Positions 13,914-35,893 of a DNA stretch of 64,000 nt are shown piece by piece; position 1 is the first letter of the stretch, and every line of letters begins with the position of its first letter. The position numbers were made by a program, and so were the translations under genes. The notes under the pieces are model-generated. The model was not told the DNA's origin and made no database searches. It worked only from the letters and a program-made list of their open reading frames with translations. Source of the stretch: Actinoallomurus soli (GTDB lineage Bacteria > Actinomycetota > Actinomycetes > Streptosporangiales > Streptosporangiaceae); contig NZ_JAMXMV010000034.1 in NCBI RefSeq assembly GCF_024055715.1, positions 1-64,000 on the forward strand, read 5' to 3'.

Positions 13914-14972
13914 GTGAGCCGCTACGGTCAGATGTTCGGTCCCGACATCACCTTCCTCGGCGTGGACCGCTGTGACCTGAACGATCTCCCCGGCGACGCG
14001 GACGTGGTCATCCTGGGCGCGCCCTTCGACGGCGGCACCTCGCACCGGCCCGGAGCACGCTTCGGGCCCAATGCCATCCGCCAAGCCTGCTATCTGCCGC
14101 ACGACGGCTCCCGCCCCAGCCTCGCGATGCGGGTCGACGCCCTGCAGGACCTGCGCGTGCTGGACGCCGGTGACGTCGAGACCTACGCCGGCGACATCGA
14201 GGGCAGCCTGCGCGCCATCGAGGACGCCGTCGCCCGCATCGCCGCCTCCGGCGCGATTCCCATCGTGCTCGGCGGCGACCACACCGTGGCGCTGCCGGAC
14301 GCCACCGGCGTGGCCCGCCACCACGGCTTCGGCCGCGTCTCCATGCTCCACTTCGACGCCCACGCCGACACCGGGCACATCGAGTTCGGCCACCTGTACG
14401 GCCACGGGCAGCCCATGCGGCGCCTCATCGAGTCCGGCGCCATCCGGGGCGATCGCTTCCTGCAGATCGGCCTGCGCGGCTACTGGCCGGGTCCGGACAT
14501 CCTGGACTGGATGGCCGACCGGCGCATGCGCTCGTACGAGATGACCGAGATCGTGACCAGGGGCCTGAACGAGTGCCTCACCGAGGCGTACGGCATCGCC
14601 CTCGACGACTGCGACGGCGTCTACCTCTCCGTGGACATCGACGTCTGCGACCCCGGCCACGCCCCCGGCACCGGCACGCCCGAGCCCGGCGGCCTGTCGG
14701 CGCGCCAGCTCCTCGACGCGGTCCGCCGCACCTGCTACGAGCTGCCCGTCGTCGGGCTCGAGGTCGTCGAGGTGGCCCCGCCGTACGACCACGCCGACAT
14801 CACCGCCTACCTCGGCAACCGGGTGGTCCTGGAGGCGCTCTCGGCGATGGCCCGGCGCCGCAGGGACGCCACCGACGGCACCCGCTGGGACCCGGCCGAG
14901 CCTCTGCTCGCGAACCGCCGTCCGAGCCGGTCCGCGAACCCCGGCGACGCCACCGAACCGGCGGCCCCGTGA
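13914..14972 (+). CDS. speB: Agmatinase family ureohydrolase
   Basis: A 352-residue Mn-dependent hydrolase cutting a guanidino group to urea. All metal-binding blocks are present: GGDHTVALP, HFDAHADTG, and SVDIDVCDPGHAPGTGTPEP. The GTG at 13914 has GGAGGA six bases upstream; an open frame continues further upstream but is not protein-like. Agmatine is the default substrate, but actinobacterial members also include guanidinobutyrase and guanidinopropionase, and sequence alone does not separate them. The divergent neighbour is a glutamine amidotransferase. Confidence 0.88.
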   Translation: MSRYGQMFGPDITFLGVDRCDLNDLPGDADVVILGAPFDGGTSHRPGARFGPNAIRQACYLPHDGSRPSLAMRVDALQDLRVLDAGDVETYAGDIEGSLRAIEDAVARIAASGAIPIVLGGDHTVALPDATGVARHHGFGRVSMLHFDAHADTGHIEFGHLYGHGQPMRRLIESGAIRGDRFLQIGLRGYWPGPDILDWMADRRMRSYEMTEIVTRGLNECLTEAYGIALDDCDGVYLSVDIDVCDPGHAPGTGTPEPGGLSARQLLDAVRRTCYELPVVGLEVVEVAPPYDHADITAYLGNRVVLEALSAMARRRRDATDGTRWDPAEPLLANRRPSRSANPGDATEPAAP

Positions 14973-14977
14973 TCGTA

Positions 14978-15009
14978 CGGCCGACGAAGAGCCGCTGAAC
15001 CTTCGGCCG
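14978..15009 (+). terminator. Stem-loop after agmatinase gene
   Basis: CGGCCGA pairs with TCGGCCG, with an inner AAG/CTT extension past a two-base bulge, starting six bases after the stop. There is no U-tract, as is common in actinomycetes. The remaining gap to 15269 holds an AT-rich island at about 15089-15130 that may include the lysozyme promoter. Confidence 0.5.
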
Positions 15010-15269
15010 GCCTCGCTCGCATCGCATTCCCGGTCGGACCGCCGTGACCGGGAGAGACGCGAGATCTCGCCAATTCGACTGCGCCAGTTGGGATAATTTT
15101 CCACTTTTTCGCGGGCGGCCGCGCAAGTTATCTACTAGGTGGGCACCCCGAGCCCGGAAGGAACGATCCCCGCCCCCCGATCCGCGGTCCCCCCGCCACC
15201 GCTACCGACAGCGCGAGCGTCCCCCGCGGAGTACACGGACAGTCCCCAGGCCCCTCCTTGGAGGATCAC

Positions 15270-16109
15270 GTGTCACCATTCAAGCGCTCCCCCCGTACGG
15301 CGCGTACGTCGTGTCTCACGGCGCTCTCCGCCGCCGTCGCCCTCTGCGGCGCGCTCTTCACCGGCGCGCAGACGGCCTCCGCCGCCCCGAACCCGATCAC
15401 CCATCCGGATCGCGACTGGCTGGGTTCCCAGGTCGCCAAGCACGAGCCCGGGTCGGGCCAGGCGATCATCCGGCCCAACGTCGCCCAGACCCCGGGCCTG
15501 GACGTCAGCGGGTGGCAGGGCAACGTCAACTGGTCCACCGTCGCCGCCAACGGCGCGAAGTTCGCCTACGTCAAGGCGACCGAGTCGACGAACTACACCA
15601 ACCCCTACTTCAGCCAGCAGTACACCGGCGCGTACTACGCCGGGATCGTGCACGGCGCCTACCACTTCGCGACGCCGAACACCTCCTCCGGCGCCGCCCA
15701 GGCCGACTACTTCGTCGCCCACGGCGGCGGCTGGTCCAGGGACGGCATGACGTTCCCCGGCATGCTCGACATGGAGTGGAACCCCTACGGCGCGGCCTGC
15801 TACGGGCTGTCGCCGTCCGGGATGGTCAACTGGATCCTCTCCTTCAGCAACGAGTACCACGCCAAGACCAGCCGCTGGCCGGTCATCTACACGGCGACGA
15901 GCTGGTGGAGCCAATGCACCGGCAACACCGGCGACTTCTCCTCCACCAACCCGCTGATGCTCGCCAACTACAACGGGTCCCCGGGCCCGATGCCGTACAA
16001 CTGGGGCTACCAGACCATCTGGCAGTTCGCCGACAGCGGCACCTTCCCCGGCGACCAGGACTACTTCAACGGCGACATCACGCGCGTCAAGGCACTCGCC
16101 AACGGCTGA
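15270..16109 (+). CDS. Secreted GH25 lysozyme (N-acetylmuramidase)
   Basis: A 279-residue secreted peptidoglycan hydrolase. The GTG at 15270 has GGAGGA at good spacing and starts a classical signal peptide ending near ASAAP (residue 40). The GH25 TIM-barrel begins with GLDVSGWQG (D78) and carries the catalytic Asp-x-Glu in GMLDMEWNP (D167, E169), the arrangement seen in Cellosyl and lysozyme M1. No separate wall-binding domain is present. It is followed by a strong hairpin, and a GH3 enzyme gene lies downstream on the same strand; both could act on cell-wall sugars. Confidence 0.93.
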   Translation: MSPFKRSPRTARTSCLTALSAAVALCGALFTGAQTASAAPNPITHPDRDWLGSQVAKHEPGSGQAIIRPNVAQTPGLDVSGWQGNVNWSTVAANGAKFAYVKATESTNYTNPYFSQQYTGAYYAGIVHGAYHFATPNTSSGAAQADYFVAHGGGWSRDGMTFPGMLDMEWNPYGAACYGLSPSGMVNWILSFSNEYHAKTSRWPVIYTATSWWSQCTGNTGDFSSTNPLMLANYNGSPGPMPYNWGYQTIWQFADSGTFPGDQDYFNGDITRVKALANG

Positions 16110-23447: not shown

Positions 23448-24683
23448 TCACGCGCGGCCGTGGGAGGCGCGCGAACGCCGGGCCGCCGCGTCCAGTGCCA
23501 CCGCGAGCAGCAGCACCGCCCCGGTGACCATGTAGCGGAAGGAGGAGTTGAGGTTCAGCAGGGTGAGGCCGCTGGAGATGGACTGGATCACCACGATGCC
23601 CAGCAGCGCCGCGAAGGCGTTGCCGCGCCCGCCGAACAGGCTGGTGCCGCCGATCACCGCGGCGGCGATGGCGTTGAGGTTGACGTCGCCGCCGCCGGTG
23701 CTCTGGTTCGCGGCGGCGAGGCGGGCCGCGGCCAGCACGCCGCCGACCGCCGCGAGCGAGGTGCACAGGACGAACACCGAGGTGTAGACCGCCTTGACGT
23801 TGATGCCGGCCCGGCGGGCCGCCTCGACGTTACCGCCCACCGCGTAGATCGACTTGCCGAACCGCGTCCGCGCCAGCAGGTAGTGGGTGGCCAGCACCAG
23901 CGCCAGGAACAGCACGAACATCCAGCCCACACCCCGGGCGCGGCCGAGGTACCACACCGCCACCCCGAGACCGGCCAGCAGCACGGCGCTGCGCAGCACC
24001 AGCCCGCGCAGCGACGCCGCGGGCAGCCCGGCGTTCCGCCGCGCCCGGGCCCGCAGATATCCGGCGGCGAACAGCCAGCCCGCCGCGACGACCACGAGGG
24101 TGTACGAGAGCCAGGCGGGCAGGAAGTCGAGCTGGGCGAAGGTGACCAGGCCCGAGTCGTACGGCAGGTTGATCGACCCCTTGCTCCCGAGCACCCACAG
24201 CTGCACGCCGAGGAAGCCGAGCAGGCCGGCGAGGGTGATGACGAAGCTGGGCACTCCGAGCCGGTTGAACACCAGCGCGTACAGCAGGCCGATGATGGCG
24301 GCGGCCGCCACCGAGGCCGGCACGGCGAGCCAGGGCGACAGCCCCTGGTCGACGAACAGGATGGCGGTGAGGGCCGCCGCCAGGCCGCTCAGCGAGCCGA
24401 CCGACAGGTCGATCTGCCCGACCAGCAGCATCAGCCCGACGCCGAGCGCGATGACGCCGACCGGCGCGCACTCCAGGGTCAGGTTGACCAGGTTCACGCT
24501 GGACAGGAAGACCGGGTTGAGGATCTGCATCACGGTCCAGATCACGACCAGACCTGCCACGACCGGGACGACGCCGAGGTCGCCGCCGCGGAAGCGCGCG
24601 ATGAGCGCCCGCAGCCCGACGGGTTCCTCCGGCTCGTACCGTCCCTGCTCGGCGAGCGGCGGCGCGGTGCTCAGGTCACTCAT
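23448..24683 (-). CDS. Sugar ABC transporter permease (ribose/xylose type)
   Basis: A 411-residue integral membrane protein of the RbsC/XylH (BPD_transp_2) family. About ten to twelve hydrophobic segments are visible, with the characteristic GLMLLVGQIDLSVGS loop and ANQSTGGGDVNLNAIAAAVIGG. It is longer than RbsC (about 320), as XylH-like members are. The ATG at 24683 is chosen because the family sequence starts there and overlaps the ATPase gene by 8 bp. It acts as a homodimer with the ATPase encoded upstream. Confidence 0.92.
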   Translation of the reverse strand: MSDLSTAPPLAEQGRYEPEEPVGLRALIARFRGGDLGVVPVVAGLVVIWTVMQILNPVFLSSVNLVNLTLECAPVGVIALGVGLMLLVGQIDLSVGSLSGLAAALTAILFVDQGLSPWLAVPASVAAAAIIGLLYALVFNRLGVPSFVITLAGLLGFLGVQLWVLGSKGSINLPYDSGLVTFAQLDFLPAWLSYTLVVVAAGWLFAAGYLRARARRNAGLPAASLRGLVLRSAVLLAGLGVAVWYLGRARGVGWMFVLFLALVLATHYLLARTRFGKSIYAVGGNVEAARRAGINVKAVYTSVFVLCTSLAAVGGVLAAARLAAANQSTGGGDVNLNAIAAAVIGGTSLFGGRGNAFAALLGIVVIQSISSGLTLLNLNSSFRYMVTGAVLLLAVALDAAARRSRASHGRA

Positions 24684-25497
24684 CGCCGGCCCCTTCCTTC
24701 GCGCCCGCCGGCACCGTGCGGCGCGCACGCCTCTTGCGTCGGGTGACCGCGTTGTCCGCCGCCCCGGTGATCGCGGTGACGATCTGCTCGGTGGTGGCCT
24801 CGACCGCGTCGAAGACCCCGTTGTTGCGGCCGAGGCGCAGTACGGCGACCGTGTCGGCGACCGACAGCACGTCGTCCATGTTGTGGCTGATCATGATCAC
24901 TCCGTGGCCGCCTTCGCGCAGCCGGTCGATCAGGTTGAGGACCTCGGCGGTCTGGGCGACGCCGAGTGCCGCCGTGGGCTCGTCGAGGATGACGATCTTC
25001 GGGTCGCCGAGCAGCGAACGCGCGATCGCCACGGTCTGCCGCTGGCCGCCCGACAGCGCGGCGACGGGGACCGACAGCTTCGGGATCTTCGCGGACAGCC
25101 GCCGGAGCAGCTCGCGCGAGCGGACCTCCATGGCGACGTCGTCCAGGCGCATCCCGCGCAGCTCCCGGCCGAGGAAGAGGTTCTCGATCACGTTGAGGTT
25201 CTCGCAGAGCGCCAGGTCCTGGAAGACGGTGGCGATGCCGAGTTGCTGCGCCGCGGCCGGGCTGGGGATGGTGACCGGGCGCGAGTCGAACGTGATGGTT
25301 CCCGCGTCGGGCTGGTGGACCCCCGACAGGGTCTTGACGAGGGTGGACTTCCCGGCGCCGTTGTCGCCGACGACGGCGACGACCTCACCGGCCGACACGT
25401 CCAGGTCGACGTCGGTGAGGGCGGCGACGGCACCGAAGGTCTTGCTGATGCCCCGCAGCGACAGCAGCGGGCTCGGTTGGGAAGGCGATGGGGACAT
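24676..25497 (-). CDS. Sugar ABC transporter ATP-binding protein (single domain)
   Basis: A 273-residue ATPase for the ribose/xylose-type importer. Walker A is GDNGAGKST, the signature LSGGQRQTVAIAR and Walker B KIVILDEPTA. Unlike the fused RbsA/XylG of enterobacteria (about 500 residues) it has only one nucleotide-binding domain, as is common in actinobacteria, so it should dimerise. The C-terminus is Arg/Lys-rich. It lies between the binding-protein and permease genes. Confidence 0.92.
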   Translation of the reverse strand: MSPSPSQPSPLLSLRGISKTFGAVAALTDVDLDVSAGEVVAVVGDNGAGKSTLVKTLSGVHQPDAGTITFDSRPVTIPSPAAAQQLGIATVFQDLALCENLNVIENLFLGRELRGMRLDDVAMEVRSRELLRRLSAKIPKLSVPVAALSGGQRQTVAIARSLLGDPKIVILDEPTAALGVAQTAEVLNLIDRLREGGHGVIMISHNMDDVLSVADTVAVLRLGRNNGVFDAVEATTEQIVTAITGAADNAVTRRKRRARRTVPAGAKEGAGDE

Positions 25498-25559
25498 GCT
25501 GATCCTTCGTTCGTACGGCCGAAGCCGCCGGCGCCCCGTCCGCAGGCGCCGGCGGACCG

Positions 25560-26642
25560 CTACTTGATGCCGAGCTTCGCGCAGGCCGCGGCGTACGTCG
25601 GGGTGCAGACGTCGGAGACCTTGAGGGCGCCGCCGGGGCCGAGCAGGACCTTGGCGATGTTCTGCTGCGTGACCACGGTCGGGGTGAACAGCTGGGACGG
25701 CGTGTTGAACAGCGTGGTCTGCCCCGCGGGGGGCTTGCCCTGCAGGAACTCGTTCGCCACGTCGGCGGCGGCCTCCGCCACGATCTTGATGGGCTTGGAG
25801 ATCGTGTTGTACTGGTCGCCCGCGATGATCCGCTGCGCCGCGGCGAGCTCGGCGTCGTTGCCGGTCACCGGGGGTACGGGATCACCGGCCGCCTTGAACG
25901 CGGCGATGGCGCCGCCGCCGGTGCCGTCGTTGGCCGCGACGACCCCGGCGATCTGCCCGTTGAACTTGCTGATCTGGCCGCTCACCCAGTCCTGCGCCTT
26001 GGCCGGCTCCCACCCGGGCGTGTCGTACTCGGCGAGCAGCTTGAGCCCGCTGTTGTCGACGGCGCTGTGAATGCCCTTCTTGATCAGGCCGGCCGCGGCG
26101 TCCGTCGGCGAACCGTTGACCTCGAGGATCCCGCCCTTGGCGTTCGCCTGCTTGAGGTGGTCGACCAATGACTGGGCGATCAGCGCGCCGATCTTCTCAT
26201 TGTCGAACGACACGTAGTAGTCGGCCTTGATCGCCGGGATCGGCCGGTCGTAGGCGATCACCGCGACCTTCTGCGCCTGCGCGGTCCGTACGATCGAGGC
26301 GGCCGCCGCGGAGTCCACCGGGTCGATGACGATGGCCTTGACGCCCTGGGCCAGCACCGAGCCGGCCTGTTGCTGCTGCTTCGAGGCGTCGGCGCCGGCG
26401 TTCTGGTACAGCACCGTGCACCCCGGGCACAGCTGCTTCATCTTGGCCTTGAACAGCGGCGCGTCGTACATCTCGTACCGGGTGGAGGCGATGTCCGGCA
26501 TGAGGAAGGCGACCTTGGCGTTCTTGGCGTCGCCGGAGCCGCCGGCGCCGCCGGAGCCCTTCTGCGAGCAGGCCGCGGCGGCGGTGAGGGCGGTGAGGGC
26601 GGCCATCGCCGCGGCGGCCGTTCTGAGACGCGGCATTGTCAC
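25560..26642 (-). CDS. Sugar ABC transporter substrate-binding lipoprotein (XylF/RbsB-like)
   Basis: A 360-residue lipoprotein, type I periplasmic binding fold, capturing a sugar or polyol for the importer encoded downstream. The signal ends in a lipobox (TAAAAC), and the ribose/xylose-binding-protein blocks IDPVDSAAAASIV and ANDGTGGGAI are present. Start: GTG at 26642 (GGAGGA four bases upstream) or ATG at 26636 (ten bases). It is the first gene of the seven-gene operon, transcribed away from the DeoR regulator. Confidence 0.9.
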   Translation of the reverse strand: MTMPRLRTAAAAMAALTALTAAAACSQKGSGGAGGSGDAKNAKVAFLMPDIASTRYEMYDAPLFKAKMKQLCPGCTVLYQNAGADASKQQQQAGSVLAQGVKAIVIDPVDSAAAASIVRTAQAQKVAVIAYDRPIPAIKADYYVSFDNEKIGALIAQSLVDHLKQANAKGGILEVNGSPTDAAAGLIKKGIHSAVDNSGLKLLAEYDTPGWEPAKAQDWVSGQISKFNGQIAGVVAANDGTGGGAIAAFKAAGDPVPPVTGNDAELAAAQRIIAGDQYNTISKPIKIVAEAAADVANEFLQGKPPAGQTTLFNTPSQLFTPTVVTQQNIAKVLLGPGGALKVSDVCTPTYAAACAKLGIK

Positions 26643-27881: not shown

Positions 27882-28958
27882 ATGCCGTCAGACATGAGGC
27901 GGCTCATTTCGATGGCGCTGGCGGGGGTCCTGGCGATCGGCGTCGTTATCGCGATCGTCGAGGGACGCGGATCATCGCATGGGACGATCACGATCCGCGG
28001 GGTGATCGGCTCGGAGAAGCAGGCGTTCTTCGGCGATCCCCAGGTACGTGAGGCGTTCGCCCGCAAGGGGGTGAGGGTCGAGGTCGATCCGGCCGGATCA
28101 CGGCAGATCGCCACCTCGATCGATCTCGCGCGGTACGACTTCGCCTTCCCCTCCAGCGCGCCCGCGGCCGACCGGATCCAGCAGGCGCGCCGGATCACCA
28201 TGAGGTACACCCCGTTCAGCTCCCCGATGGTGATCGCGACGTTTCAGCCGATCGCGGACCTGCTGGCACGGGAGGGCGTCGCCCGGCACGGCGCCACCTG
28301 GACCTTCGACATGTCGCGGTACCTCCGGCTGGTCGCACGGAGGACACGGTGGGACCAGGTGCCGAACAACACCGCCTATCCGGTGCGCAAGGACATCCTG
28401 GTCTCCACGACCGACCCCCGCAGTTCCAACTCGGCGGCCATGTACCTGGCCATCGCCTCGTACGTCGCCAACGGTGACACGGTCGTGCGCGGCGGCGCCG
28501 CGGAGAGGAAGGTGCTGCCGCTGCTGTCCGGGCTGTTCCTCGACCAGGGCTACACCGAGAACACGACGGAGGGCCCGTTCGAGGACTACCTGTCGCTCGG
28601 CATGGGCAAGACGCCCCTGGTCTGTGCGTACGAGGCGCAGTTCGTCGACGCCGGCGTCCGAGGCCGGCTACGGCCCGGCATGGTGCTGATGTATCCGTCG
28701 CCGACCGTGCAGTCCGCGCACACACTGGTGCCGCTCGACGCGAAGGGCGACCGTGTCGGCCGGCTGCTGACCACCGACCCGGAACTGCAGCGGCTCGCGG
28801 CCCAGCACGGATTCCGGACCGCCGACCCCGCGCGCTTCGCGAAGCTCACCGCCGACCACCGGATCCCGGTCGCGACCGACCTGATCGACGTGGTCGACGT
28901 CCCCTCCTACGACACCCTCGAGCACCTGCTGGACGGTGTCGCCAAGTCGTACGGCTAA
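27882..28958 (+). CDS. Membrane-anchored substrate-binding-like protein, first gene of TelA/VWA operon
   Basis: A 358-residue protein with one N-terminal hydrophobic segment (about residues 7-27) that probably anchors it, outside, to the membrane. The body resembles an extracellular solute-binding protein (type II fold). The motif STTDPRSSNSAAMYL parallels MTDPASSNSGFSAL in the VWA protein two genes downstream. No ABC permease or ATPase is nearby. The start has no good ribosome site; ATG 27894 is an alternative. The next gene, telA, starts ten bases after the stop. Function unknown; a role in envelope stress sensing with TelA is inferred. Confidence 0.75.
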   Translation: MPSDMRRLISMALAGVLAIGVVIAIVEGRGSSHGTITIRGVIGSEKQAFFGDPQVREAFARKGVRVEVDPAGSRQIATSIDLARYDFAFPSSAPAADRIQQARRITMRYTPFSSPMVIATFQPIADLLAREGVARHGATWTFDMSRYLRLVARRTRWDQVPNNTAYPVRKDILVSTTDPRSSNSAAMYLAIASYVANGDTVVRGGAAERKVLPLLSGLFLDQGYTENTTEGPFEDYLSLGMGKTPLVCAYEAQFVDAGVRGRLRPGMVLMYPSPTVQSAHTLVPLDAKGDRVGRLLTTDPELQRLAAQHGFRTADPARFAKLTADHRIPVATDLIDVVDVPSYDTLEHLLDGVAKSYG

Positions 28959-28967
28959 GGAGCCTCG

Positions 28968-30131
28968 ATGGCAGCTGAGGATCTCATCCTCACGCCCCCC
29001 GAACCCGTGGCCGCCGTCCCGGCGGACCGCGCGGAGACGCTGATCCCGATGGAGGACGCCCAACGTGACGAGCTGACACGGCGCGCGCGGACGTACGTGG
29101 ACGATCTCGCGGCGCTCGATCCCCGCAGCCCGGAGTTCATGAGCAGGATCGGTCAGGTGGCCGCGCTCGGCGACGGGGAGATCCGGGCGTCCGCGCAGGC
29201 GGCGAACAGGATGCTCGGCCGTTCGGTGGCCGCCCTGTCGGGGGCCAAGGGCGAGTCCGCGGACGCGCAGCAGCGCGTGGCCAAGGGCCTGGTGGAGCTG
29301 CGGCGCACGGTCGAGGATCTCGATCCCAAGGACGTCGGCAAGGTCACCGGCCGTCGGTTGCTGTCGAAGCTGCCGTTCGGCAGGTCGCTCCGCGACTTCG
29401 TCTCCCGCTACCAGTCGGCGAACGTCAACATCAACAAGATCGTCACCGCGCTGCGTTCCGGCCAGGACGAGCTGCGCCGCGACAATGCCGCCATCCAGAA
29501 CGAGCGCGCCGCGCTGTGGGCCACGATGGGCAAGCTCCAGGAGTACGCGGTGCTCGCGCAGGCGCTCGACGAGGCCATCGAGCCCGCGATCACGGAGACG
29601 GCGGACGAGGAGAAGGCGAACGCGCTGCGCGCCGACGTGCTGTTCCCCGTACGCCAGAAGCGGCAGGACCTCCTCACCCAGCTCGCCGTCTGTGCCCAGG
29701 GCTACCTCGCGCTGGACACCGTGCGCCGCACCAACGACGAGCTGGTCAGGGGCGTGGATCGGGCCGCGTCCACGACGGTGTCCGCGCTGCGGATCGCCGT
29801 GACCGTCGCGGCCGCGCTGTCGAACCAGAAGCTCGTCATCGAGCAGGTGAACGCCCTGCGGGCCACCACCGAGGACATCATCCGCACCAACGCGGAGCTG
29901 CTCGCCGGGCAGAGCGGGGAGATCCAGCGGATCGCCGCCGATCCGGCCGTCGGCGTGCAGACGCTGCGGACGTCGTTCGAGCAGATCTACCGCACGATCG
30001 ACGCCGTCGACTCGTTCAAGGCCCAGGCCGTGACCAACATGCAGGCCACGGTCGACGCGCTCGGCGCGGAACTGAACCGGGCGTCCGCGTACCTGAGCCG
30101 GGCTCACGAGCGGAACGAGCTCGAATCATGA
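28968..30131 (+). CDS. telA: Toxic anion resistance protein TelA family
   Basis: A 387-residue soluble, almost wholly alpha-helical protein of the TelA/KlaA family, known from tellurite resistance plasmids and from membrane-stress operons such as xpaC-yceH in Bacillus. Family blocks include LLSKLPFGRSLRDFVSRYQS, a long charged coiled region, VLFPVRQKRQDLLTQLAV, and NQKLVIEQVNALRATTEDII near the C-terminus. AAGGAG lies five bases before the ATG. The stop overlaps the next start (ATGA), so it is tightly coupled to the VWA protein. No ter genes are visible here. Confidence 0.92.
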   Translation: MAAEDLILTPPEPVAAVPADRAETLIPMEDAQRDELTRRARTYVDDLAALDPRSPEFMSRIGQVAALGDGEIRASAQAANRMLGRSVAALSGAKGESADAQQRVAKGLVELRRTVEDLDPKDVGKVTGRRLLSKLPFGRSLRDFVSRYQSANVNINKIVTALRSGQDELRRDNAAIQNERAALWATMGKLQEYAVLAQALDEAIEPAITETADEEKANALRADVLFPVRQKRQDLLTQLAVCAQGYLALDTVRRTNDELVRGVDRAASTTVSALRIAVTVAAALSNQKLVIEQVNALRATTEDIIRTNAELLAGQSGEIQRIAADPAVGVQTLRTSFEQIYRTIDAVDSFKAQAVTNMQATVDALGAELNRASAYLSRAHERNELES

Positions 30132-31738
30132 CCGGAGGCCGCGCACGGGCATGGCGCGTCGTCGCCCGGCTCACGGCCGCCGCGGTGCTGGCGGTCGTCA
30201 CGGGCTGCAGCGGCGGCACCGACGACGCCGGCAGACCCGGCACGCTGCGGATCCTCGCGGGCAGCGAGCTGTCCGACCTGGAGCCGATCCTCCGCGCGGC
30301 GACGAAGGCCACCGGGGTCGGCGTGAAGCTCGACTACGCCGGGACCCTCGACGGCGTCCAGCAGGTGCTCGGCGGTCAGGCGGACGCGCGGTACGACGCG
30401 GTCTGGTTCTCCTCCGATCGCTACCTGGCGGTGCACCCGGACGGCCGGTCCCGGCTGGGCCCCTCCGTGAAGATCATGTCTTCGCCCGTGGTCCTGGGCC
30501 TGCGCGCCTCGGTGGCACGCCGTCTCGGCTGGGATCGCACCAGGCCGACCTGGGCCGCGATCGGCGCCGCCGCGTCGGCCGGGAGGTTCACCTATGGCAT
30601 GACCGACCCCGCGTCGTCGAACTCCGGTTTCTCCGCGCTCGTCGGCGTCGCCGCCGCGCTGTCGGGTACGGGCGCGGCGCTGGACGGGCCGACCATCGAC
30701 CGGGTCGCACCCCGGTTGAAGGGCTTCTTCACCGCGCAGCGGCTCACGGCGGGCTCCTCCGGCTGGCTGTCGGACACCTACGCGCGGGACCCGTCCCGGG
30801 TCGACGGCCTGATCAACTACGAGTCCGTGCTGCTCGGCCTGAACGCCTCCCGGCGGCTCCCGGAGCCGCTCACCATCGTCTACCCGAGCGACGGCGTCGT
30901 CACCGCCGACTACCCGCTCACGCTGCTGTCCTCGGCGGCCGGACGGTCGGGGGACGCCTTCCGCAGGCTGACCGGCTACCTGCGGCGCGCCGAGGTCCAG
31001 CGCAGGATCATGACGCAGACGCACCGCCGGCCGGCCGACCCCGATGTGCGCCCGGCCGCCGAGTTCGCGGCCCAGCCGCCCGAGCTGCCGTTCCCCGCCC
31101 GCGCGGACGCGGTCGACGCCCTCATCGACGCCTACTTCAACCGGCTCCGCCGGCCGGCGCGCACGATCTACGTGCTCGATGTCTCCGGCTCCATGGAGGG
31201 CGCGCGGCTGGCGTCCCTGAAGGCCGCGCTGACGGCGCTGACCGGTGCGGACACCACGCTCGCCGGACGCTTCCGGCGGTTCCACGACCGCGAGGAGGTG
31301 ACGCTGCTGCCCTTCAGCACCCGGCCCGGAACTCCCGCGACCTACGTGCTGCCCGAGAGCCGGCCCGAGGCGGAACTCGCGCGGATCCGCGCGTTCACCC
31401 AGGGACTCGCCGCCGGAGGCGGTACCGCGATCTACGACAGCCTGGAGCGGGCGTACTCGATGGCCGAGCAGTCGGCGGCGCGACGGCCCGACCGGTTCAC
31501 CTCGATCGTCCTGATGTCGGACGGTGAGAGCAACAGGGGCGCGTCGGCCGACTCCTTCCGCGCCTGGTACGAGGGACGGCCTCCGCAGGCACGGCGGATC
31601 CCGGTCTTCCCCGTCCTGTTCGGAGAGGCGGCGACCGGGCAGATGACCACGCTGGCGCAGCTCACCCAGGGCAGGACGTTCGACGCCCGGACACAGTCAC
31701 TGTCCGAGGTGTTCAAGGAGATCCGTGGCTATCAGTGA
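30128..31738 (+). CDS. Lipoprotein fusing a substrate-binding domain to a von Willebrand A domain
   Basis: A 536-residue predicted lipoprotein: lipobox VVTGC at about residue 27, a solute-binding-like domain (about 35-330), then a VWA domain (about 350-530). The metal-ion-dependent adhesion site is complete: DVSGSM, the Thr in GGGTAIYDS, and the Asp in LMSDGES. The ATG overlaps the telA stop by 4 bp; the stop lies inside the next gene by 14 bp. It shares the TDPxSSNS motif with the operon's first product, so the two binding domains are related. Likely an outer-surface sensor or scaffold; the ligand is unknown. Confidence 0.88.
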   Translation: MTGGRARAWRVVARLTAAAVLAVVTGCSGGTDDAGRPGTLRILAGSELSDLEPILRAATKATGVGVKLDYAGTLDGVQQVLGGQADARYDAVWFSSDRYLAVHPDGRSRLGPSVKIMSSPVVLGLRASVARRLGWDRTRPTWAAIGAAASAGRFTYGMTDPASSNSGFSALVGVAAALSGTGAALDGPTIDRVAPRLKGFFTAQRLTAGSSGWLSDTYARDPSRVDGLINYESVLLGLNASRRLPEPLTIVYPSDGVVTADYPLTLLSSAAGRSGDAFRRLTGYLRRAEVQRRIMTQTHRRPADPDVRPAAEFAAQPPELPFPARADAVDALIDAYFNRLRRPARTIYVLDVSGSMEGARLASLKAALTALTGADTTLAGRFRRFHDREEVTLLPFSTRPGTPATYVLPESRPEAELARIRAFTQGLAAGGGTAIYDSLERAYSMAEQSAARRPDRFTSIVLMSDGESNRGASADSFRAWYEGRPPQARRIPVFPVLFGEAATGQMTTLAQLTQGRTFDARTQSLSEVFKEIRGYQ

Positions 31739-32354
31739 CCGGCTCGTCCGCTACCTCGGGTCCACGAAGAACCTCGTCGGCTCGGCGGGCGGCCTGGCCG
31801 GGCTGGGCCTGCACTTCACGGGTCTCGCCGGGCCGTACTGGCCGCTCATCGTGGTCGGTCTGTACGGCGCGGGGGCGCTCGCCGCACCACCGCAGAGGGT
31901 CACCCTCGTCATCGACGACACCGTCGCCCGGACCGGACGGCTGCGCGCCGATCTCGACGGGCTGCTCGCCCGCGCGGGTGAGCACCGCCTGCCCGCGGAG
32001 GCTCGGGAACGCGTCGACGTCATCGCGTCCGTGCTCCGCGACGTCCTGCTCCGATCCGACGTGCTGAGCGACTCCCCCGACCTGATGTACGAGGTGTCCC
32101 GCGCGGTCCGGACCGACCTGCCGACCAGCCTCGAGACCTACCTGAACCTGCCCCGGTGGTACGCCGTCCGCCGTACCGGCCATGGAACGGCGGGCGAGGA
32201 GCTCATCGCCCAGCTCGACCTGATCACGGCGTCCGTGATGAGGACCGCCGAAGCCGTCTACGACGCCGACCACCGGCGGATGCGCGACCACACGCGCTAC
32301 CTGCGCGACCGGGAGCCGGACGACGACCTCGGGTCGCCGCCGCGGGCCGGATGA
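31725..32354 (+). CDS. Small membrane protein of TelA/VWA operon (XpaC-like architecture)
   Basis: A 209-residue protein with two adjacent hydrophobic segments near residues 18-55 followed by a helical cytoplasmic-looking domain with many Arg/Asp residues (LPRWYAVRRTG, DHTRYLRDREPDD). AAGGAG lies five bases before the GTG, which is inside the end of the VWA gene. The layout, a transmembrane hairpin plus a helical domain next to telA, recalls Bacillus XpaC, the usual TelA partner. I do not recognise a family by sequence, so the comparison is by architecture and position only. Confidence 0.75.
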   Translation: MAISDRLVRYLGSTKNLVGSAGGLAGLGLHFTGLAGPYWPLIVVGLYGAGALAAPPQRVTLVIDDTVARTGRLRADLDGLLARAGEHRLPAEARERVDVIASVLRDVLLRSDVLSDSPDLMYEVSRAVRTDLPTSLETYLNLPRWYAVRRTGHGTAGEELIAQLDLITASVMRTAEAVYDADHRRMRDHTRYLRDREPDDDLGSPPRAG

Positions 32355-34693: not shown

Positions 34694-35893
34694 TCAGGAC
34701 AGGCCGCGCAGGTCGATGCGGCGGAACGTGATGGTCTCGTTGGCACCGGCGGTGCCCGTCTCGTACAGCAGGCCGACGGTGCGGGCATCGACCTGGACGA
34801 GGTCGGAGTAGGAGGCAGGCAGCGACGACAGCGTGAGCGCGGATCGCCAGGTGACGCCACCGTCGTGGCTGGTCCGCAGCGTCATCACCGCCCGCTTGGT
34901 CGGATCGGCCGGGCCGGAGAAGAGCAGTGGCGCCTTCGGCCCGCGCGCCTGCAGGACGCTGCCCTCCACGACCGGTCCGGCCAGCGCCGGCTGCGGGCTG
35001 AACGGCTGCCGCAGCGTCCGGCCGCCGTCCAGGCTGTAGGCGTCGGCCCGGTTTCCGGGCGCGGTGCCGTTCTGATCGCGGGTGTTGAAGTAGACACGCC
35101 CGTCCGGCAGTTCCGTGGCGGTCGTCTCGTTGACGTTCACCTGGCCGTCGGGGTTGTCGTCGACGTAGCCGATGTGCCAGGTCCGGCCGTCGTCGTCGCT
35201 GTAGAGGTCGTGCCCGCCGTAGTACTTGGCCTCCGACCCCAGGTCGGAGGCACCCGCGGGCGGGGCGATCGAGTGGTTCGCCGGGACGACGAGCCGTCCG
35301 CGGTGCGGGCCGTGGGTCAGCCGCGTCGCGTGGCCGGGCCCGGTCGCGTACCAGCGCCAGTTCGGCAGCTTGGCCGCGGCGGTGATCTCCCGGGGTACGG
35401 ACCAGGTCGTGCCGTCGTCGTCGCTGTACTGCACGAACACCCGCCGGCTGTTCTCGGGCGGCACCTGTCCGCGCAGGATCTGCGCCTCCGTTGCACTGCC
35501 GGCGTTGTAGGCGGTCAGCAGCACGACGCGGCCGCTCGCCGTGACGACGGGCGCGGGGTTTCCGGAGGTGTTCGGCCCGCTGTCCTGGACGACCCGCAGC
35601 GGTGACCAGGTGCAGCCGCCGTCGGCCGACCGCTTCACGACGGTGTCGATGTTCCCGGCGTCGCCGAGCCCGTCGGAGCGCCCCTCGGCGAACGCGAGCA
35701 GGTCACCCGACCGGGTCTCGACGATCGCCGGGATCCGGAACGCGCTGTATCCCTCGGTCCCCGCCGTGTACGGCACGGACACCTCGCACCGGCCCGGTCC
35801 GGCCTGGGCCGGTGTGATGCCGGTGGCCACGGCCGCGACCAGAGCTCCGGCGCTGACGGCGAGCACCGTATTCCCGCGCTTCTGCAGACGCAT
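34694..35893 (-). CDS. Secreted exo-sialidase (GH33)
   Basis: A 399-residue secreted neuraminidase releasing terminal sialic acid. A signal peptide (to about residue 31, AQA) is followed by the FRIP motif (FRIPAIV, the first Arg of the triad), the acid/base Asp in EGRSDGLGD, and four Asp boxes (SADGGCTW, SDDDGTTW, SDDDGRTW, SHDGGVTW). The Glu in NVNETTATE and the Tyr in SYSDLV suit the Glu/Tyr nucleophile pair. The ATG at 35893 is preferred over an upstream TTG. No discoidin or lectin domain is attached. No sialic-acid transport or catabolic genes are in the window. A palindromic operator overlaps its promoter. Confidence 0.92.
   Translation of the reverse strand: MRLQKRGNTVLAVSAGALVAAVATGITPAQAGPGRCEVSVPYTAGTEGYSAFRIPAIVETRSGDLLAFAEGRSDGLGDAGNIDTVVKRSADGGCTWSPLRVVQDSGPNTSGNPAPVVTASGRVVLLTAYNAGSATEAQILRGQVPPENSRRVFVQYSDDDGTTWSVPREITAAAKLPNWRWYATGPGHATRLTHGPHRGRLVVPANHSIAPPAGASDLGSEAKYYGGHDLYSDDDGRTWHIGYVDDNPDGQVNVNETTATELPDGRVYFNTRDQNGTAPGNRADAYSLDGGRTLRQPFSPQPALAGPVVEGSVLQARGPKAPLLFSGPADPTKRAVMTLRTSHDGGVTWRSALTLSSLPASYSDLVQVDARTVGLLYETGTAGANETITFRRIDLRGLS

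Follow-up and report, generated by a model that had tools for sequence, protein, structure and literature searches.

In a 64,000-nucleotide stretch of the Actinoallomurus soli genome (contig NZ_JAMXMV010000034.1, positions 1 to 64,000; here called the window), we analyzed four tightly packed genes on the plus strand at positions 27882 to 32354, with open reading frames read directly. We call them A, telA, C, and D. An initial annotation, made from the sequence alone, had placed all four genes there and had described overlapping stops and starts from telA onward; both points held. The overlap is 4 nucleotides (ATGA) between telA and C and 14 nucleotides between C and D, while A and telA are 9 nucleotides apart with a GGAG in between. 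Homologs of A align from its second methionine, the ATG at 27894, which is the likely start. The features are as follows.

27882..28958, plus strand: gene A, N-terminally membrane-anchored class II solute-binding-like protein, 358 amino acids
27888..27968, plus strand: membrane helix of A, residues 3 to 29 (helix in the AlphaFold model, hydrophobicity judged by eye)
28410..28433, plus strand: TDPRSSNS of A, residues 177 to 184, a conserved segment also present in C (alignments and profile comparison)
28968..30131, plus strand: telA, soluble helical TelA family protein, 387 amino acids (PF05816, 273 bits)
30128..31738, plus strand: gene C, lipoprotein with a solute-binding domain fused to a VWA domain, 536 amino acids
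30206..30208, plus strand: lipobox Cys27 of C, invariant in 22 sequences and at least 90% conserved in 42
30278..31006, plus strand: solute-binding domain of C, residues 51 to 293 (SBP_bac_11, E value 1e-9)
30602..30625, plus strand: TDPASSNS of C, residues 159 to 166
31163..31699, plus strand: VWA domain of C with an intact metal site (D351, S353, S355, T433, and D465)
31725..32354, plus strand: gene D, two-helix membrane protein with a helical cytoplasmic part, 209 amino acids, GTG start
31773..31889, plus strand: predicted membrane hairpin of D, about residues 17 to 55 (by eye from sequence and alignment)

Conservation of the four genes

We scanned named genomes with an alignment of C and kept the best 80 of 215 relatives, a set biased toward close relatives of C. 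Genes were called by a codon-usage script and labeled by profiles, not by a standard gene finder, and L196, L200, and part of L205 were excluded for wrong frames. The initial annotation had named two findings that would speak against its view of the locus, namely, that the four genes are not conserved together or that their homologs regularly adjoin ABC permease genes. Neither was seen. The order A-telA-C-D was found in 63 of the 80 loci, A-C-D in 12, A-C in 4, and C alone in 1. The full set occurs in Actinomycetota, Chloroflexota (L148), Pseudomonadota (L159, L165, L171, and L174), Deinococcota (L181), and Dormiibacterota (L170), and an Acidobacteriota locus (L175) has A-C-D. Its carriers include several Streptomyces (e.g., L149 and L166). 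Plasmids carry it as well, with A-telA-C-D in Variovorax and Sphaerotilus and A-C-D in Deinococcus taeanensis. C and D overlap or lie at most 4 nucleotides apart in 63 of 75 cases, as do telA and C in 43 of 63. The flanking genes vary between lineages and are mostly unrelated, ordinary chromosomal genes, which argues that the four genes are the unit. A conservon-like run of small genes upstream of A (L032 and L034 to L036) or of C (L039) was considered as a further part and dropped; in L034 the run consists of UPF0047, DUF3052, and a peroxiredoxin.

When directons were defined by gaps of at most 100 nucleotides, 56 of the 80 held only these genes. None of the 40 extra members in the other directons was a multi-pass protein (at least four hydrophobic helices in a crude hydropathy count), and the operon therefore has no dedicated permease. 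An ordinary ABC importer was rejected on the same survey: the class II fold is present in A and C, but the operon has no permease or ATPase.

Near the window operon, the initial annotation had reported no ABC permease, no ATPase, and no ter gene. The first part did not stand, as a ribose-type ABC set (ATPase, permease, and sugar-binding protein) lies at 23448 to 26642 on the minus strand, 1.2 kb upstream of A, with a DeoR-type regulator in between and a sugar kinase also next to the set. This set is complete, has its own binding protein, and is not part of the operon. The second part stood: 10 neighboring called genes between 21926 and 37400 have no ter family Pfam match, and TerD has no match in the whole genome, in which no search for other ter genes was made. 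Downstream, at 34694 to 35893, the window holds a gene for a secreted sialidase-like protein with BNR repeats.

Within the family of the window organism, 150 genomes (its own included) divide into 45 with both C and telA, 14 with C only, none with telA only, and 91 with neither (Fisher's exact test, P = 3e-26, without correction for relatedness). This count uses C places of at least 440 bits only (59 places in 59 of the 150 genomes), and it leaves out one TelA match under the cutoff (G032) and, for two split genes, the second piece. A is near 54 of the 59 C places and telA near 44; nine weaker C places were kept apart, with A near six and telA near none. Seen from the other side, telA adjoins C for 44 of the 45 telA genes, and the remaining one is split by contig ends. 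In the window's own genus the distribution is patchy, with telA in none of the four other genomes, one of which has A in two pieces and no C.

Two homologous binding-protein heads

A has one N-terminal membrane helix and no lipobox cysteine, followed by a class II solute-binding fold. Its AlphaFold model, built like that of C from alignments of named-genome relatives, has a pLDDT of 95.0 and a pTM of 0.87 and places the helix (residues 3 to 29) ahead of the binding-protein fold; the Pfam match to SBP_bac_11 is below threshold. C matches SBP_bac_11 with 39 bits over residues 51 to 293 and VWA models over residues 338 to 524, and its model (pLDDT of 92.7 over the whole protein) shows the binding domain and then the VWA domain. 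The metal site of the latter (DxSxS, T, and D) had been called intact, and its five residues are invariant in 42 sequences.

The initial annotation had also pointed to a TDPxSSNS motif shared by A and C. All six reading frames of the window together contain exactly two copies, one in each of the two genes, and a profile comparison of A with C (probability, 97.3; E value, 2.5e-11; 260 columns aligned) indicates that the two heads are homologous and that the shared motif reflects this homology. The segments common to both are GSE, TDPxSSNS, a Q segment, YE, and YP. In both A and C, the candidate ligand-loop segments GSE, SSNS, and YE rank with the best-conserved parts, and the invariant residues include S44, E45, S182, Q222, Y250, and E251 in A (51 sequences) and S46, E47, S164, N165, Q204, and Y231 in C (42 sequences). 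Loops at the corresponding places make up the ligand cleft of class II binding proteins, a correspondence drawn here at the level of loops and not residue by residue; from the family fold, the TDPxSSNS segment of A would line its cleft.

Among solved structures, A is closest to the sulfate-binding protein 1sbp (Z score of 23.7, root mean square deviation of 3.6, 275 residues), and the head of C matches AfuA, HptA, and ferric-binding proteins; A, like C, has a fold match to HptA (6lkg). A sequence search of the PDB gave no useful match for A and none for TelA, and with C it gave VWA chains and weak HptA matches at profile positions 241 to 318. The fold matches favor binders of sulfate, hexose phosphate, or ferric ion. 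No family was ruled out on account of fold matches to proteins with different ligands.

Exchange of the cytoplasmic partner

The window telA product is placed in the TelA family by its PF05816 match (273 bits against a cutoff of 30), and it is the only TelA copy in the genome. To describe variant gene orders we used 134 C loci, after leaving out C proteins that scored under 400 bits, were outside 420 to 640 amino acids, duplicated another sequence, or lay close to the edge of a locus; some genomes are in this set twice (e.g., L032 and L104). A-C without telA, D, or a kinase gene is found in 28 of the 134 loci, and TelA-D without A or C is found in L199 and L214 to L217, so that A-C and TelA-D occur as separable pairs.

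Six loci lack telA and D; in them a gene for a Ser/Thr kinase shares 4 nucleotides with A, and C comes next. Two are from Catenuloplanes (L121) and Actinoplanes (L122), and four (L223, L227, L229, and L233) are from genomes of the same family as L121, where this arrangement makes up 4 of the 20 closest C loci. The kinases were identified by Pfam in L121 and L122 and in the others by a profile built from confirmed kinases. They have a C-terminal two-helix hydrophobic stretch with the same topology as the N-terminal hairpin of D, for which we do not claim homology. In L058, one protein combines a kinase with an A-like ectodomain, and its gene is followed by C. A kinase 1.2 kb upstream in L040 was too distant to count. 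In L033, L041, L201, and L202, A has an N-terminal cytoplasmic extension of unknown family ahead of the membrane helix.

The order C-D-A-telA was found in L194, L195, and L247 to L252 (TelA by Pfam in L247 and L250), and L193 has A-C-(small membrane protein)-telA. The place of D in the C-D-A-telA operons is taken by an XpaC-like protein, which against the XpaC model PF10112 (cutoff of 29.8) scores 39.5 bits in L195, above the cutoff, and 22.5, 23.7, and 20.7 bits in L194, L247, and L252, below it. The TelA proteins of these operons group with the TelA from L197, which belongs to a TelA-XpaC pair, and are distant from those of the A-telA-C-D operons (SH-aLRT of 99, in a quick tree with long branches). 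Two distant TelA lineages therefore sit in operons of the same parts, and the four-part set was kept or assembled with both.

Other variants were seen around the same genes. L053 to L057 and L203 have a distant A-C pair and then a single-helix membrane protein of about 230 to 250 amino acids in place of TelA and D, which had no Pfam match in the two cases tested. In L214 (TelA-D) and L198 (TelA), an AAA+ ATPase of about 555 amino acids with AAA_lid_6 follows, with no ter genes adjacent. L117, whose genome also carries the four-gene operon, holds at 14397 to 15875 (the same place as L041, 3738 to 5174) another A, which stands by itself and has a cytoplasmic extension at its N terminus; it is closer to the window's A (76%) than is the A of the operon in its own genome (57%). 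An iron-uptake-type set lies directly upstream of the operon in L042, L044, and L118, and in L042 it comprises an imelysin-cupredoxin protein (by Pfam) with neighbors on its two sides that are a multi-pass and a peroxidase-like protein.

A proposed model of an envelope receptor

A single-pass protein that has a binding-protein ectodomain and is joined to or cotranscribed with a kinase is a receptor by its architecture. If the kinase version is a receptor, then by analogy the TelA-D version would be a receptor with TelA as its output. The exchange of TelA and D for a kinase is the best evidence that A and C act as the receptor and TelA, with D, as the output arm, a view that these comparisons support, and it likewise lends independent support to the sensing device across the envelope that the initial annotation had proposed. 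As for the outcome, a Listeria TelA disruption mutant is reported to be 4-fold more susceptible to nisin and 2-fold more susceptible to tellurite, the mechanism of TelA being described as unknown (PMC12791056, available part), and envelope protection is therefore the likely result.

We consider it probable, by a modest measure, that the four genes encode one membrane-spanning envelope receptor with A and C as its head, TelA and D as its output, and a protective effect. The four products would form a complex. Outside the cell, the two homologous solute-binding domains would make up the sensing head, with A held by its single N-terminal helix. Through its metal site, the VWA domain of C may dock a further protein, which could be A or a partner in the wall or membrane. 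Capture of a ligand by A, C, or both would shift the arrangement of the two and move the helix of A. The hairpin of D would pack on this helix in the membrane, its cytoplasmic part would hold TelA, and TelA, a long helical protein under the membrane, would change state and alter the envelope, making cells tolerant of an attack on it. Some bacteria have, in place of TelA and D, a Ser/Thr kinase that carries a membrane hairpin of its own, which would make the head a reusable part.

Several observations weigh against this model or limit it. On the C tree the kinase-A-C arrangement is one gain, with the L058 fusion as a second. D is present without TelA in 16 of the 134 C loci and missing in 38 of the 54 C loci without TelA, and D is thus not strictly tied to TelA; a tree-based test of TelA-D coupling, of low power with six supported pairs, was not significant (median P of 0.5). 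C loci without telA occur in 17 genomes, of which 4 have telA elsewhere and 13 have none, so that A-C-D can exist without any TelA and must then work otherwise. The window's D has no Pfam match and hence none to PF10112, which gave one match (E value, 0.2) among 26 D homologs, and its profile comparison with XpaC is weak (probability, 31; E value, 5e-4). Direct membership of D in the XpaC family was accordingly not reached, and its likeness to XpaC is drawn from its positional homologs. Transporter genes are also found near some relatives. A MalK-like ATPase (identified by Pfam in L136 and by a similar sequence start in L220) lies two genes upstream of A in these two loci, with a Yip1-like protein in between, and on a Vibrio penaeicida plasmid (L188, 2244 to 11028) TelA sits among ABC genes.

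The Vibrio cluster is a different, more distant one. It contains an ABC ATPase, a nitrate-type binding protein, a VWA protein, an OmpA-fused protein, TelA, a further binding protein, and a BPD_transp_1 permease, and it is possibly a Gram-negative analog that does contain transporter genes.

Alternative explanations

Four other readings were weighed. The first would refine the receptor model: the ligand of the heads would be phosphate, some phosphorylated compound, or an oxyanion of a related kind, to which TelA would adjust the envelope or anion handling. The best match of A is the sulfate-binding protein, C matches the hexose-phosphate binders AfuA and HptA along with the ferric binders, and phosphate-related genes stand before or after the unit in four clades. 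These encode PPK1 in L045 and L048 (Pfam in L048), PPK2 in L221, L222, L232, and L235 (Pfam in L221), a phytase-like esterase in L224 to L226, L234, and L253 (Pfam in L224), and PhoX in L185 (by annotation). However, the neighbors were counted post hoc with no control set, unrelated genes make up most of the flanks, and a fold match does not fix the ligand, since binders of thiamin, ferric ion, sugars, and polyamines also score high. Together, folds and neighbors point weakly to phosphate or a phosphorylated compound, and we regard this refinement as rather unlikely, though worth keeping in view.

The second reading takes TelA, D, and C for a structural scaffold, beneath the membrane and at its surface, that physically stiffens the envelope, with the solute-binding domains as modules for adhesion to proteins or the wall and with no signal. 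TelA and the VWA protein TerF have been described as forming submembrane structures that block the entry of phages and xenobiotics (PMC7824862, available part), and peptide binding at the metal site is typical of VWA domains (PMC7159879, available part); the conserved pocket segments could serve protein binding too. A purely structural head is nonetheless hard to reconcile with its coupling to, and in one case fusion with, Ser/Thr kinases, and the candidate ligand loops are among its most conserved parts. We think such a shield unlikely.

Less likely again is a defense operon against phages or bacteriocins, triggered by binding of a surface molecule of the invader. Ter-type TelA has been linked to phage and xenobiotic resistance (PMC7824862), the nisin sensitivity of the Listeria mutant (PMC12791056) and the patchy presence in the window's genus would fit, and the operon has a Wadjet set as its neighbor on the Variovorax plasmid. 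That neighbor, however, was seen in one locus only, the flanks are mostly ordinary chromosomal genes, and no family of PADLOC-DB 2.0.0 matches any of the four proteins at E values up to 1, on which ground a known antiphage system was rejected. A phage gene set was likewise rejected, as TelA alone has a clear PHROG match, to a "tellurite resistance" family, and C has a weak one in its VWA region. The Variovorax locus (L184, 1752 to 19274) has the operon between a flotillin and OB-fold gene pair and the Wadjet genes (JetA to JetD).

Finally, that A and C serve an importer encoded elsewhere, with TelA as a bystander, is very improbable: the importer-type fold of both heads, the Vibrio cluster, and the MalK-like ATPases speak for it, but no multi-pass protein was found in the 80 directons, A-C pairs with TelA-D or kinases across lineages instead, and the nearest ABC set in the window is on the other strand with its own binding protein.

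Relation to known systems and significance

The closest described relatives of the proposed receptor share only some of its parts. The TelA-XpaC (YaaN-XpaC) pair of Firmicutes, e.g., lmo1967-lmo1966, also has TelA beside a small membrane protein with no enzyme or transporter, and the place of D in the related operon L195 is held by an XpaC family protein. In contrast, the XpaC model gives no match to D of the window, and the available part of PMC12791056 describes no binding proteins or VWA lipoprotein with the pair. The Ter stress response system (TerB, TerC, TerD, TerF/TerY, and TelA) likewise combines TelA with a VWA protein, whereas the VWA domain in the window is extracytoplasmic and fused to a binding domain, and A and C have no Ter counterpart in the available part of PMC7824862. 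Since TerD is missing, membership in a Ter operon was rejected for this genome. Two loci hint at a link to Ter: in L217 (5984 to 7125) a TelA-D pair lies beside a TerD protein, and in L201 (4186 to 9033) an A with a cytoplasmic extension lies two genes downstream of a TerD-AIM24 protein.

The HptASR system of Staphylococcus aureus is a sensory precedent in which a binding protein serves as the sensor for a membrane signaling protein and not for transport; HptA is described as handing the glucose-6-phosphate signal to the membrane kinase HptS (PMC8774646, available part). HptA is also a fold match common to A and C. HptASR differs in its output, a histidine kinase with a response regulator, neither of which is present in the window operon, and in having one binding protein and no VWA domain. 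Free-standing actinobacterial "substrate-binding and VWA domain-containing" proteins have the same domain pair as C and are about 25 to 30% identical to it, and unlike C they stand without an adjacent A, TelA, or D in the seven loci examined (L062 to L068). The component families are thus known, while in the literature searched we found no description of the A-telA-C-D operon, of the union of these families as a conserved, transporter-free operon, or of the kinase swap; earlier comparative work on Ter systems may mention it.

A bolder version of the receptor reading, which we put forward tentatively and with more doubt than confidence, is that these operons represent an undescribed class of transmembrane signaling. 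A two-subunit head of paired solute-binding domains, one of them fused to a VWA domain, would sit on interchangeable outputs, either TelA with an XpaC-like hairpin protein, as in most lineages, or a hairpin-bearing Ser/Thr kinase, and TelA would be a signal output and not an anion resistance protein.

TelA is widespread and its mutants have envelope stress phenotypes, with a mechanism described, for Listeria, as unknown (PMC12791056). Its pairing with an identifiable extracytoplasmic receptor would make the question of TelA tractable, by finding the ligand of the head and then the response of TelA, and the exchange of TelA-D for a kinase would offer kinase activity as an independent, measurable readout for the same head. 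If the model is true, it would also show binding proteins of the importer type put to a new use, that of sensing.

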